Shown here: positions 3,814-57,940 of the stretch, piece by piece
How positions within the stretch are numbered: the first letter of the stretch is position 1
Layout: the number at the start of each line of letters is the position of its first letter
Source: Pedobacter sp. BS3
GTDB taxonomy: Bacteria > Bacteroidota > Bacteroidia > Sphingobacteriales > Sphingobacteriaceae
NCBI RefSeq assembly: GCF_008274585.1
Contig: NZ_VTRT01000005.1
Span: forward strand, 248,001-312,000
Length of the DNA: 64,000 nucleotides
Direction: 5' to 3'
Translations under genes and position numbers: made by a program
The notes under the pieces: generated by a model
What the model was told of the DNA's origin: nothing
Database searches by the model: none
Seen by the model: the letters and a program-made list of their open reading frames with translations, nothing else

Positions 3814-4202
3814 TATTCCGTTTATGACAATTGGCTGATGTAAGATTTTTGTTGCAGGAAGCAGTAATAAAAGTCAAAATTCAAAAGTGGGAAATCGCAG
3901 AACTGGTTCAGTTGAATGACAATACAGGTTGATTGATTTTTAGAAAAGCAATGCTTGTGCCATTTGGGTTCGGGTAGCCCGGCTTTACGCTTATACTGCA
4001 CGAGCATTAGCCGCAAGGCCGGTATCCGCTCAATCCGGTTTAGCCTGGGTGGGGCAGTGGGGTTATTTAGCTGTATAAACGGATAGAAATGTTTATATAC
4101 GACTAAGTGCTTATATTTGGGTATTGGCGGTCAAGCGTTTTGAGCGATGCTAACGAAACGGTTATAGTATATAGTAGCTATAATAATCGAACTGAAACAG
4201 AA
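3814..4202. other. Intergenic gap between the efflux operon and mcrB
   Basis: The 390 bases hold only a 64-codon minus-strand frame (3822-4016) with no family features, which I do not count as a gene. The DNA changes from mixed composition to clearly AT-rich near 4100, where the McrBC island begins. I see no integrase, tRNA or direct repeat marking this edge. Confidence 0.5.
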
Positions 4203-53433: not shown

Positions 53434-53973
53434 GTGCTTCTGCAACAACTTGAACATACCTTAACAAAAAGCAAAATGGTCAAACTGGCTGCTATAGCGG
53501 GTAATGATAGCCTGAGTTTGCCGGAATTGCTGGATATGTGCTTTTATCACCGCACTGAAATTGCGTTCAGGGCAGCCTGGATACTGGAACATGTTACAAC
53601 GCATTACCCGGAACGTTTTGTACCTTATCTTGCTGATTTTCTGAGCCGGTATCCGAAGCAGCAAAACCCAAGCTGCCAGCGACATTTTACCAATATCCTA
53701 ATTTTCCTGACGGGCAACCGGGCTGAAAAGAAAGGTATCCGGCTTACCGGGTATGATATGCTGCCTATTGTAGAAACCACGTTTAACTGGCTGATAGCTG
53801 TTGATACAGCCATTGCAGTTAAAGCCAATTGTATGGAGGTGTTATACAATTTAAGGCATACTGCCGACTGGATTACCGAAGAATTACATCAGCAACTGCT
53901 ATTCTTACAACGCGATGGCGGTCCGGCCATTCAAAGCCGGAGCCGTAAGATTATGGAAAAGCTTAATGGTTAA
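53434..53973 (+). CDS. Helical (HEAT-like) protein of unknown function
   Basis: The protein has 179 residues from a GTG at 53434; an ATG at 53476 is possible. It is all helical, with FRAAWILEHVTTHYPERFVP and KANCMEVLYNLRHTADWITE resembling HEAT/ARM repeats. I do not recognise a family. It is followed by a hairpin pair. Confidence 0.72.
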   Translation: MLLQQLEHTLTKSKMVKLAAIAGNDSLSLPELLDMCFYHRTEIAFRAAWILEHVTTHYPERFVPYLADFLSRYPKQQNPSCQRHFTNILIFLTGNRAEKKGIRLTGYDMLPIVETTFNWLIAVDTAIAVKANCMEVLYNLRHTADWITEELHQQLLFLQRDGGPAIQSRSRKIMEKLNG

Positions 53974-53975
53974 TC

Positions 53976-54024
53976 AGGGATTGCAAATCCCTGGTTATTA
54001 GCGGCGGGATTACAAATCCCGCCG
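53976..54024. repeat. Paired hairpin repeat, copy 1
   Basis: AGGGATT-GCA-AATCCCT (53976-53992) is followed by GGTTATTAG, then stem CGGCGGGATT with loop ACA (54002-54024). Copy 2 lies at 55924 with compensating changes in both stems. There is no coding content. Confidence 0.8.
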
Positions 54025-54074
54025 AGCGAAGTTTAAACAACTTTAATGATTTTGCGGGTTGTTAGCCGCCTTAT

Positions 54075-54609: not shown

Positions 54610-55476
54610 TCAATTCTTTTCAACATAATCCCGCAACAAGGTACCGATAAGCGCTGTCCAGCCTTCCATAAAACTTTCTTTGGCAAAAGCGCTTACCGCA
54701 GGGAATGTTTCCAAACCGGCATGCATGAGCTTGATATGCGTTTTATCGCCATCGGCTTGTAGCTTGTACGTTACGTATGAAATTCCTTCAAAACCTTCGT
54801 ATCGCCAGCTATATGCTAATTTGACAGGTTCCTGTACTTCGGTGACCACACATTTATGAAGGTAATCTTCGCCTTCTTTTCCCTTGCCCCAAAACTCAAA
54901 TTCGAAGCCGACTTTTGCTTCAAAATTTTTGATATCAAAAGACCATTCACGCAAAGCCTCTGCATTGGTGAGCGCTTCCCAAACGGTTTGTAAAGGCGCA
55001 TCGAACGTTCTTTCTATAACAATTGGCCCATGTTGCTTTTTTTGCAATAAATATTCCTCAAGCCTTTCAATGTTTTGTTTTTGACCTTCGTCCGCTTTGT
55101 GCGTTTTAATTATAATTTCACGCATTTCCGCGGTATCAAATAACATGGTCCAGTCTATCTGGGTTTCTTCGCCCACAGCTTCAAAAAGAACCGCGGTAAT
55201 GAAATGCGGGTTGAAGTGCTCAAACACGATTTTCTTAAACGGGATAATTTCCTTGAAAATACTGCGGTTGGGATAGTCTGTGCCATCCGGCCCGTGTAGG
55301 GTTAATTTCCATTCTCCTCCTTCTTTAAAATCCAGGGTATGAATGGTAGAGGTAAAGCCTTTTGGTCCCCACCAATGTATAATATATTCAGGCCGGGTCC
55401 AGACATCCCAAACCAAAGCTACCGGAGCTTTAACGGTTTTGGTGATTCGCATTTCCCTGTTTTCTGTTTCGCTCAT
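54610..55476 (-). CDS. Tandem SRPBCC (AHSA1-type) two-domain protein
   Basis: The protein has 288 residues. Domain 1 begins ITKTVKAPVALVWDVWTRPE (about 10-135) and domain 2 begins VIERTFDAPLQTVWEALTNA (about 147-285). It lies 6 bp after arsR and 28 bp before the single-domain gene, making three related domains in a row. Confidence 0.88.
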   Translation of the reverse strand: MSETENREMRITKTVKAPVALVWDVWTRPEYIIHWWGPKGFTSTIHTLDFKEGGEWKLTLHGPDGTDYPNRSIFKEIIPFKKIVFEHFNPHFITAVLFEAVGEETQIDWTMLFDTAEMREIIIKTHKADEGQKQNIERLEEYLLQKKQHGPIVIERTFDAPLQTVWEALTNAEALREWSFDIKNFEAKVGFEFEFWGKGKEGEDYLHKCVVTEVQEPVKLAYSWRYEGFEGISYVTYKLQADGDKTHIKLMHAGLETFPAVSAFAKESFMEGWTALIGTLLRDYVEKN

Positions 55477-55482
55477 GTTATT

Positions 55483-55800
55483 TTATTTATTGTTTTGAAT
55501 TTTCGCTAAATATTTGTCCAGGTTATCAAAGCGGTCTTCCCAGATTTTCCGGAATTGCTCCAGCCATTGGTCAATCTCTTTCATTTTCCGGACTTGAAGC
55601 TGGTAGTAAATTTCCCTGCCTTGTTGTTTTGGGGCAATTAATTCGCATTCTGTTAAAATGCGAAGATGCTTTGAAACCGCCTGCCGCGTTGTGTCAAAGT
55701 GTTCGGCAATGGCGTTGGGTGTCATCGCCTGCATGGCAATAAGTGTAATGATTGCCCGCCTTGTCGGGTCGGCTATAGCCTGAAAAATATCTCTTCTCAT
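55483..55800 (-). CDS. ArsR-family regulator of the SRPBCC operon
   Basis: The protein has 105 residues from MRRDIFQAIADPTRRAI at 55800. A start at 55854 adds 18 atypical residues. HTH text is AIAEHFDTTRQAVSKHLRIL. No metal-binding Cys motif is seen, so it is the SdpR-like non-metal type. Confidence 0.9.
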   Translation of the reverse strand: MRRDIFQAIADPTRRAIITLIAMQAMTPNAIAEHFDTTRQAVSKHLRILTECELIAPKQQGREIYYQLQVRKMKEIDQWLEQFRKIWEDRFDNLDKYLAKIQNNK

Positions 55801-55923
55801 GTTAAAAAGAAACCAATTGGTTGCAAATATATGTGCAACTATTTGGTTTCGCAAATTTTTCTAAAAATCTTTTGGGTAAAGGTTCAGGCTTAAACTTAAG
55901 CGAGTGGGGGAATGGGGGTAACG

Positions 55924-56120
55924 AGGAATTGCAAATTCCTGGTTATTAGCGACGGGATTATAAATTAGGAGTGTTCGAAACCTTAAAAATCACTAAAAGT
56001 AAGGCGAGCTTATCTGCAAAAATGCTCGAAACAGACGGCTTTTCATTGGCTTTTGTTAGATGAATAATGCTTTCTGTATAAGGTTTCGAACACATGTGAT
56101 TATAAATCCCGTCGAGCGAG
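55924..56120. mobile_element. Copy 2 of the paired hairpin, split by a 132-bp inverted-repeat element
   Basis: The first hairpin is AGGAATT-GCA-AATTCCT (55924-55940). The second hairpin is interrupted at its tip. GATTATAAAT occurs at 55956-55965 and 56098-56107, and between them lie 132 bp with 15-bp terminal inverted repeats GTGTTCGAAACCTTA (from 55971) and its complement (near 56079-56093). The intervening element has no transposase. Removing it restores a perfect stem. Confidence 0.85.
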
Positions 56121-56213
56121 GTTTATTCACGGATAAAAGAAACCATAAATAGCAGTGCTACTCCGCATAGCTAAACAAGACATCGTCGTCAGTGCTGCAT
56201 GGGCGTATTTACA

Positions 56214-56246
56214 AACGCAGACAGCGTTCTGAACGCTGTCTGCGTT
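56214..56246. repeat. 16-bp perfect palindrome
   Basis: AACGCAGACAGCGTTC and its exact reverse complement are separated by one T (56214-56229 and 56231-56246). It lies in the same gap as the split hairpin, with no gene around it. A frame at 56127-56378 crosses it and is not a credible gene. Confidence 0.7.
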
Positions 56247-56386
56247 ATAGTTATAGCATTGGCCCGACCTATCTAAACCGGGATGGGAGCGGATACCGGC
56301 CTTGTGCGTAATGCTTGCAGGCGTATGAGCGTACAGCCGGGCTACCGGAACCAATAATTTGCAGGCCCTGCTTTTCAAAAAATAAA

Positions 56387-57049
56387 TTAATGGCGTCCCA
56401 TAAGGCCACGTAATTGTTCCAGGCTCATGTCTTCGTAGCCGCCCGGTACAGAGAATGTACCTGCCGGTACTTTCTGGCTTTTGATTTCCTTTACTGTGGC
56501 CTGAATGCCCAACCCATTCTGAAAGGAGTTGAATTTTAACGGTACGCCGAGCGAAGCATCAAAAAACTGTGTGAGTGAATTTTGCGGCGTACTGATGTCC
56601 TTGGTGAACCAGGCATCGAACGTTTGCCCGGATTTTTTCTCAGTTACCTGGTATTTCTGCGCTTTGTATCCGGCAATAGTCTGGGTTTCGGTGGTTGGCT
56701 TAACATTCATCTCAGGCCATTTATCCTGCATCTGTTCACGGTCTGCGGGAGTAATATTTACTGAATATTTTTTACTCATCATGGGTATATCCAATAATAA
56801 ATGCTGATAGCCGGTTTTGGCATTCATTAGGGTAACAGACGACGACATTTGTGATTTTGCAACGGTGCTGGCAGAATCGCCTTTAAAATATACCTGCATT
56901 TCGGTTGGAAACATGCCGGCCATTTGCTGCATCTGCGTGGGCAGCTGCCATTCAACCTGGTAGGTAATAAGGCCCTCGTTAAGAGCGGTTTGCGCAAAGG
57001 TGCCACAGGCGAAGCAGGTATAAATTAAACTTAAAACAATTTTTCTCAT
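56387..57049 (-). CDS. Secreted DUF4412/GLPGLI-like protein
   Basis: The protein has 220 residues with a signal peptide ending GTFAQ. TALNEGLITYQVEWQLP starts the domain and TQTIAGYKAQKYQVTEKKSG with FDAWFTKDI is the usual core. It probably binds something in the envelope; the role is unknown. Confidence 0.82.
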   Translation of the reverse strand: MRKIVLSLIYTCFACGTFAQTALNEGLITYQVEWQLPTQMQQMAGMFPTEMQVYFKGDSASTVAKSQMSSSVTLMNAKTGYQHLLLDIPMMSKKYSVNITPADREQMQDKWPEMNVKPTTETQTIAGYKAQKYQVTEKKSGQTFDAWFTKDISTPQNSLTQFFDASLGVPLKFNSFQNGLGIQATVKEIKSQKVPAGTFSVPGGYEDMSLEQLRGLMGRH

Positions 57050-57145
57050 GCTGATAATATTTATACTTTTATATCTGTATAGACGGTTGAAGATGCGATT
57101 TGTTATGGTTAACGGGAAATTTAGTTTTTAAGTAATTGATAATGA

Positions 57146-57940
57146 ATGAGATTTAAACTTTTACTATCCTTCTTTTTTCTTTTTCAGTTGGTTAAGGCGC
57201 AGGTTAATACAGGGCCGCGTTTAACGGGTATGGGCGGTGCTGCGGTGGCTTTACAGGATGTGTGGAGCTTACAGGCCAATGCTGCGGGTGTCGCAGGACT
57301 GAAACACGCGGCGTTATCTGCCGCTTATCAGGGCCAGTACACCAATACCGACCTGAGCACACAATCGGCTGTGTTTGTACTGCCGTACAAGGACAATGCT
57401 TTCGGGCTGAGCTTCCAGAATTATGGCTTTTCTGCTTACAGCGAACAGCGGGCCGGCCTGACTTACGCCCGTACGTTTGGCAATAAGCTGAACGCGGCGT
57501 TGAGCTTCAACTATCACCAGGTTAAAATACCGCAATATGGCAGTACCAGCGCTTTTTCGGTTGATGCGGGATTGCAGTACTGGGTGGGCGAAAAGGTGCT
57601 GCTGGGAGCGCATGTTGGTAACCCGGGACAGGCAAAGTTTGTAGACGTAGGCACTATCATACCAGTGCATATTGATTTTGGCGCTTCGTACCATTTCAAT
57701 GAAAACCTGGTAATGGCCGGTGAAGTTACCAAAACGCTGAATGCTAATACCGATGTCAAGGCCGGCCTGGAATACGGTGTTGTGAATTGGCTATCGTTGC
57801 GTGGGGGAGTTTCGGTTAACCCGTTCCGTCAATATGCAGGATTTGGCGTAAATTATAATAAGTTCAGGATTGATGCGGCGGCGTCATCACATCCGGATCT
57901 GGGCTATTCACCACAGGTATCTCTCAGCTATGAGTTTTAA
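57146..57940 (+). CDS. PorV/PorQ-like outer-membrane barrel protein
   Basis: The protein has 264 residues. A signal peptide ends VKAQ. GPRLTGMGGAAVALQDVWSL then ANAAGVAGLKHAALSA is the PorV/FadL-like start. The chain ends YSPQVSLSYEF, a barrel-type aromatic end. It may serve the type IX secretion system or the next gene. The next start lies 11 bp inside its end. Confidence 0.82.
   Translation: MRFKLLLSFFFLFQLVKAQVNTGPRLTGMGGAAVALQDVWSLQANAAGVAGLKHAALSAAYQGQYTNTDLSTQSAVFVLPYKDNAFGLSFQNYGFSAYSEQRAGLTYARTFGNKLNAALSFNYHQVKIPQYGSTSAFSVDAGLQYWVGEKVLLGAHVGNPGQAKFVDVGTIIPVHIDFGASYHFNENLVMAGEVTKTLNANTDVKAGLEYGVVNWLSLRGGVSVNPFRQYAGFGVNYNKFRIDAAASSHPDLGYSPQVSLSYEF

Follow-up and report, generated by a model that had tools for sequence, protein, structure and literature searches.

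The stretch of DNA analyzed here, 64,000 nucleotides of Pedobacter sp. BS3 (hereafter, the window), contains a paired REP-like repeat whose second hairpin is split at its tip by a short element between direct repeats. The locus thus raises the question of whether this element is mobile, to which family of insertion sequences (IS) it is related, and what places it at the tip of a hairpin. The ends of the element (TAGGAGTG.../...CACATGTG) were placed, in our reading, by comparison with relatives, so that it spans positions 55966-56098 and is 133 bp long; the initial annotation, which had recognized a real element, made it 132 bp. Six-frame translation reveals neither an end-to-end open frame nor a long ORF, so the element is gene-less. 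It is flanked by the 9-bp direct repeats ATTATAAAT (55957-55965 and 56099-56107, plus strand; 9/9 identical). The 10-bp sequence previously taken for the duplication, GATTATAAAT, does occur twice (55956-55965 and 56098-56107), but its tenth matching base, a G, is coincidental and the true duplication is 9 bp. The 15-bp terminal inverted repeats noted earlier are exact at both ends (GTGTTCGAAACCTTA; 55971-55985, plus strand, and 56079-56093, minus strand) and form the inner parts of longer terminal repeats: TAGGAGTGTTCGAAACCTTA on the left (55966-55985, plus strand), the tip of which, TAGGAG, is kept in many relatives, and CACATGTGTTCGAAACCTTA, from the tip inward, on the right (56079-56098, minus strand), where the outer 5 bp have diverged, the outermost five bases reading inward TAGGA and CACAT, respectively.

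The insertion point was correctly located in the tip of the second hairpin: when only one copy of the duplication is retained, the site, TTAGCGACGGGATTATAAATCCCGTCGAGCG, folds into a 10-bp stem (CGACGGGATT/AATCCCGTCG) with a 3-base loop, ATA, and the 9 duplicated base pairs are the loop and three stem bases on each side. The arms outside the duplication, CGACGGG (55950-55956) and CCCGTCG (56108-56114), both on the plus strand, are complementary to each other, with 7 of the 8 flanking positions pairing. The first hairpin of the pair (TAACGAGGAATTGCAAATTCCTGGTTA) occupies 55919-55945 on the plus strand in the inverted-repeat listing of the window, and an undisrupted sister repeat with two hairpins, GGGATTGCAAATCCC and GGCGGGATTACAAATCCCGCC, is found on the same strand at about 53970-54030. 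That this type of hairpin is genuine in the window is shown by 3 exact occurrences of GGRATTNNNAATYCC against 0.02 expected. The second-hairpin pattern, with up to 3 mismatches, occurs at 6 places in the genome, including the sister repeat in the window, and by eye a first hairpin is clearly recognizable ahead of the second in 5 of these 6 copies, that of the sixth being decayed. Known REP tags include GTAG and CGTC (PMC3733652, accessible part); here, CGTC sits within the stem of the host hairpin rather than as an unpaired tag. The plus strand of the region 55920-56130, host arms included, has a predicted fold of -73.3 kcal/mol against a shuffle mean of -43.0 (z -7.5; 0 of 200 shuffles equally good), and strong folding is seen for both strands. 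The Rfam search of positions 55000-57200 gave no match at any family's gathering score.

The initial annotation proposed a search of the genome for further duplicated pairs, which yielded one complete pair, that of the window element, and two one-ended relics. The end pattern, with at most 2 mismatches, occurs at 10 places, two of which are the window element and one the relic L013, whereas the others look like chance; a DNA search adds a second, more diverged relic, L012. Both relics are flanked by a GGATTTA-type sequence that resembles one half of such a hairpin. A search of this genome at E<=1e-30 detected no relative of the IS4 transposase described below, in a 27-contig assembly from which a collapsed copy could be missing; because no matching transposase was found, the element is probably immobile now in its own genome. 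Since that genome is nearly empty of copies, the answer was sought in other genomes.

Several features of the surroundings were recorded in passing. Relic L013 adjoins an array of three 211-bp tandem repeats with 98% matches (L028 1834-2465), and L012 lies just 3' of the transposase gene (335 aa) of an IS110-family element at about 130-1440, the ends of which are our reading of the alignment; this element is the only match in its own genome at E<=1e-80, and four family genomes contain relatives with 61-67% identity. A repeat dispersed through the genome, with about thirty hits, is present at L012 1-90 and in the window at about 56270-56340 and 3979-4044, the copy at 56270 overlapping a sub-threshold Flavo-1 RNA match (21.3 vs 42 bits). 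Elsewhere in the window, positions 56214-56246 form a perfect inverted repeat of 16 bp around a single-base loop, and a 21-bp inverted repeat at 55809-55850, a candidate operator, lies at the beginning of a gene for an ArsR-type regulator (55483-55854, minus strand), which is followed by an AHSA1-domain gene. Of two neighboring proteins submitted to PADLOC, the regulator matched six low-scoring families, the best being Csa3 at 52.5 bits, which we read as a shared helix-turn-helix; the second protein matched none.

Beyond the host, a DNA search of 151 family genomes and a search of 301 genomes for the exact end pair returned the own genome only, and a looser end pattern matched in 11 of 399 genomes, several of the matches apparently being due to chance. 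Same-ended copies are present in other Sphingobacteriaceae and in one Chryseobacterium. In the genome G281, hairpins of the TAGCGATGGGTTTTAAACCCATCGCTA type harbor six copies, each about 145 bp long; another genome, G320, carries a single 207-bp copy (L099) in CAAGCG-TCC-CGCTTG. A scan of named genomes with the end pattern produced 13 stretches, 8 of which were judged by eye to be chance and 5 real (L118-L122), namely a 165-bp copy in a Pedobacter MAG (L118), a 243-bp copy in Chryseobacterium (L121), and three contig ends of Pedobacter ghigonis. A related pattern, with at most 2 mismatches, was found in 18 of 149 genomes of the genus of G281, some single hits probably being chance; with three target bases included, this pattern is skewed toward AAT flanks. 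The looser end pattern, the named-genome pattern, and the transposase protein query are free of target bases. From the end comparison, 24 two-ended short copies were retained after removal of chance pairs by eye; L172 was reassigned to the IS set, and L111, the right end of which was missed by the pattern, was dropped, with the end visible in the alignment and this copy also flanking a hairpin. In 17 of the 24 copies, 8 or 9 of the 9 flanking bases are identical. Six end-pattern hits in viral contigs, among which no two-ended element was seen, were taken as chance.

An IS with the same ends, for which the initial annotation had proposed to look, exists within the same family. The multi-copy element of P. 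ghigonis, a member of the Sphingobacteriaceae present twice in our sample (G399 and G196, with two of its places at identical coordinates in the latter), has these ends. Each of the two is represented three times, always at the edge of a contig, and in our reading all six contig ends abut half-hairpins. The matching arms of two of these ends imply a pair with ATTGCAAAT on both flanks in the hairpin GGTCTGG/CCAGACC, and one other end (ATTTGTAAT) has no matching partner. When 398 family genomes were searched with one P. ghigonis end, three matched, including the single-contig genome G205. The latter contains a 1330-bp IS (L172 1504-2833), the tips of which are identical over TAGGAGTGTTCGAAACC, flanked by the 9-bp duplication ATTACAAAT within the hairpin AGTCAGG/CCTGACT; the left terminal repeat of the window element matches the left end of this IS through TAGGAGTGTTCGAAACCTT. 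Directly after the IS, L172 2834-2888 shows, by eye, a copy of about 28 bp of the IS left end in the next half-hairpin, which suggests repeated insertion at the same hairpin. In this copy, which may be inactive, the transposase gene is broken up into two overlapping frames; an intact, full-length IS with precisely these ends was not recovered, and many relatives of the transposase are encoded in one frame of 392-416 codons. One P. ghigonis end encodes, in frame, 34 C-terminal residues with a single difference from the G205 transposase. A search of plasmids with a P. ghigonis end gave no match at the DNA level; relatives of the transposase on 247 plasmid records are all less than 60% identical (at most 37.7% among the matches listed). 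The one relative compared with the PDB, L190, has no sequence match there at E<=1.

The transposase belongs to the IS4 family. The G205 protein scores 61.4 bits with DDE_Tnp_1 (cut-off 23), and its C-terminal frame scores 117.4 bits with NF033592, the IS4-family model (cut-off 115), compared with 32.2 bits for the N-terminal frame alone and 141.6-156 bits for four intact relatives. It contains the motif YKKRWDIEVFFRFIK, that is, Y(2)R(3)E(6)K, and this YREK pattern recurs in every one of the 26 IS loci in which it was sought. In an alignment of 17 rows, the second aspartate (DRG/DAG/DKG) and the glutamate are found in all 17 and the first aspartate (DST/DSS) in 15, L176 starting later and L181 differing at this position. 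The IS4 hallmarks and subgroup signatures used here come from the accessible part of De Palmenaer, 2008 (PMC2266710). The target duplication of IS4 elements spans about one helix turn (7-13 bp) and is 9 bp in both the G205 IS and the window element; the signature of the IS4Sa subgroup, CA------T with 8-10 bp repeats, fits the relatives with CACAGGTGT/CATAGGTGT ends and only partly those with TAGGAGTGT and CAGTCATGG. The window element is short, lacks a transposase gene, and shares its inverted ends and duplication with the larger IS, as is typical of a MITE; several copies per host genome, another MITE trait, are seen only in relatives (G281) and not in the own genome, so that we use the term for structure, not copy number. 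Taken together, these observations make it very probable that the window element is a MITE of an IS4-family IS, inserted by a 9-bp stagger at the tip of a hairpin. The anticipated Bacteroidota counterpart of REP-targeting IS elements hence exists, but the kinship with IS1397 is not supported: the element is assigned to the IS4 family and not to the IS1397/IS3 type, because the same-ended G205 IS with 9-bp repeats encodes an IS4 transposase, and P. ghigonis agrees.

To avoid choosing insertion sites by their flanks, we searched 343 family genomes with the C-terminal transposase frame of G205, which yielded 26 copies in 15 genomes, only 34-45% identical to the C-terminal part of the G205 transposase in the case of the relatives entering the statistic. 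Ends were resolved for 23 copies, leaving out L177 and L188 (ends not resolved) and L182 (too near a contig end); these copies are not fully independent, given that G180 and G329 contribute four each and G283 three. The G205 element entered with its outer right end (1385 bp); the inner end (1330 bp) is better and gives the same arms. Flanking repeats of 9-10 bp are exact at 18 of the 23 sites and imperfect at 5, the edges of duplications within palindromes being ambiguous by 1-2 bp. With a slight shift of the axis allowed, at least 7 of the 8 pairs beside the duplication are complementary at 20 of the 23 sites, compared with 0.64% of the 48,648 positions scored in the flanks and 1.3% of the 8,213 in intergenic DNA; without this tolerance, the figures are 5 of 23 and 0.08%. 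The signal is registered to the axis, with 20 sites at offset 0, 15-16 at +/-1, and at most 2 further out. Among the short copies, 10 of 24 show such pairing, against 0.6%, these copies having been found by end patterns that partly contain target bases. In G329, the arms of four IS copies (L189, L195, L199, and L201) pair better, by eye, between copies than within one, that is, the left arm of L195 with the right arm of L199, L199 left with L195 right, and L189 left with L201 right, and no pairing of the four copies sorts out the loop repeats; recombination between these copies is likely.

The alternative that fares best is that a 9-bp sequence, approximately ATTNNNAAT, is what the transposase recognizes, and that hairpins are hit only since the repeat class carries this core. 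The expectation that copies would interrupt hairpins is indeed borne out only in part, as 14 of the 24 two-ended short copies have no strong hairpin. Judging from the flanks, a sequence core does contribute to target choice, because 7 of these 14 carry an exact AT(T/C)NNNAAT left flank, and several more are one base off. Against the core as the sole determinant stand hairpin tips that lack it, namely GCGTCCCGC (L099), GTTNNNAAC (G281), GGCTCCTGCC and GGCTGGAGCC (G329), and the terminator-like sites described below; more generally, the tips vary, with CCTTAAAAG as a further type, while the symmetry stays. The pattern used for the genus of G281, moreover, itself held the target bases AAT and so favors the ATTNNNAAT core. 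We regard this explanation as unlikely, albeit one to be taken seriously.

The resolved sites fall into two classes. Fifteen sites (L178-L181, L183-L186, L191-L194, L197, L198, and L200), all occupied by elements with TGGTCGG in their ends, are mostly terminator-like hairpins: 13 of the 15 empty sites score as terminators in at least one direction, and all 15 elements themselves have an inward hairpin followed by a T-run at the left end, as do 13 of them at the right end. The score and its 1% null (15 of 1500 random 70-base windows of the loci) are a simple rule of our own, and the class labels, which coincide with end sequence, were assigned after the sites were seen. The sites and ends of the eight REP-type elements are devoid of terminator-like hairpins (0/8), as are the short copies (seven) and P. 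ghigonis ends (two) to which the rule was applied. After removal of identical and short rows, a tree of 17 transposases unites the users of terminators in a single group (support 96/98; recovered in 94% of bootstrap trees), which includes L177, a copy without a resolved site; the G205 row is long-branched and its position unsure. A gene 3' end, by a crude ORF call, faces all 15 terminator-type sites and 6 of the 8 REP-type sites, as would be expected also if insertion were random and the survivors were only those in harmless non-coding hairpins. Such selective survival appears improbable given that the symmetry, registered to the axis, characterizes so small a fraction of intergenic positions and so many of the insertion sites.

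Membership of the window element in the IS110 family, some members of which also use REPs, could be suspected from the position of relic L012 next to an IS110 transposase gene, but is most improbable: the end pattern (at most 2 mismatches) matches in only 3 (L068, L076, and L077) of 22 related IS110 loci in other genomes (L066-L087), in none of the 22 does an inward-facing pair of ends surround the IS, and an alignment of nine loci places, in our reading, the IS110 end before the relic. An IS110 origin was accordingly rejected on the end comparison. Equally improbable is an origin in place as an immobile structure, a large and imperfect palindrome such as an RNA gene. Strong folding on both strands would speak for this reading, which is already refuted for the family by independent, duplication-flanked copies at unrelated sites and in other species and by the same-ended IS.

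Under the interpretation of the window element as a MITE of an IS4-family IS, the directly observed features are the ends, the 9-bp duplication, the position on the hairpin axis, relatives elsewhere, and the same-ended IS with a frame-split DDE/YREK gene. From these, the following scheme can be envisaged. A dimer of the IS4-type transposase would bind the TAGGAGTGTTCGAAACC ends and, by analogy with the IS4 family, excise the element in a cut-and-paste reaction, the gene-less copy presumably being moved in trans. Joining to the target would involve a 9-bp staggered cut, symmetric over a short hairpin tip, so that the loop and three bases per stem side become duplicated. The target would be read as dyad symmetry or as an extruded hairpin shape and not only as a sequence core, that is, it would be structure rather than sequence that is recognized. 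Extending this scheme, we tentatively put forward, with somewhat less than even confidence, that a Bacteroidota clade of IS4 elements targets hairpin (dyad) structure largely independently of sequence, that one lineage is specialized for terminators and carries inward terminators, and that the window element is a gene-less satellite on the REP side. The anatomy of the terminator users suggests that they may replace the terminator broken by their insertion. If so, insertion into a host terminator would destroy the signal yet supply replacements, with less harm to the host and with the transposase gene shielded from read-through.

The choice of target by DDE transposases is usually only weakly sequence-specific. 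Here, hairpin symmetry appears to fix the landing site, and sister groups use REP-like repeats and terminators, which makes the question of sequence or structure directly testable. The elements may further exemplify mobile DNA that replaces a signal it has destroyed, and they provide a handle for annotating small orphan repeats in Sphingobacteriaceae.

Among known systems, IS231 elements target GGG(N)5CCC, a dyad-symmetric sequence, and to our knowledge REP or terminator hairpins are not among their targets. The ends of IS231 (5'-CAT...) differ from those of the window element; the IS231 subgroup likewise belongs to the IS4 family and has 10-12 bp repeats (PMC2266710, accessible part), and the word terminator is absent from the main text of that paper. 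In the accessible part of a MITE review (PMC10969869), terminator-like sequences are described in a pneumococcal repeat, and neither IS4 nor any term beginning with Bacteroid- is mentioned. CGTC-tagged repeats occur in Bacteroidetes, where associations with transposases are only fortuitous according to the accessible part of a REP survey (PMC3733652). The use of REPs has been reported for five IS families (PMC1525189, Tobes and Pareja 2006; here and below, its accessible part), and the main text of this paper contains neither MITE nor miniature, with terminator appearing once, in another context. IS1397 and ISKpn1, of the IS3 family, likewise insert in REP palindromes (PMC1525189) but have a transposase of another family, in contrast to the IS4-type IS with 9-bp duplications described here. 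ISPsy8 of Pseudomonas syringae is also inserted at the symmetry axis of REP hairpins, but belongs to the IS3 family and generates a 3-bp direct repeat (PMC1525189). The closest parallel is ISRm22 of Sinorhizobium meliloti, an IS4-family element of the subgroup IS4Sa (PMC2266710, accessible part), all copies of which lie in REPs, at the axis of palindromy (PMC1525189), as does the window element; ISRm22 is alphaproteobacterial and its direct repeats are 6 bp (PMC1525189), compared with 9-10 bp here, and the two are likened by description only. The literature searched, which covered few subscription journals, yielded no REP-targeting IS4 element of Bacteroidota and no such IS in terminators. The targeting of REPs by an IS4-family element is thus already known from ISRm22, and what is new, as far as we have searched, is the clade in Bacteroidota together with its MITEs, the shift from one class of target to another, and the ends that carry terminators.
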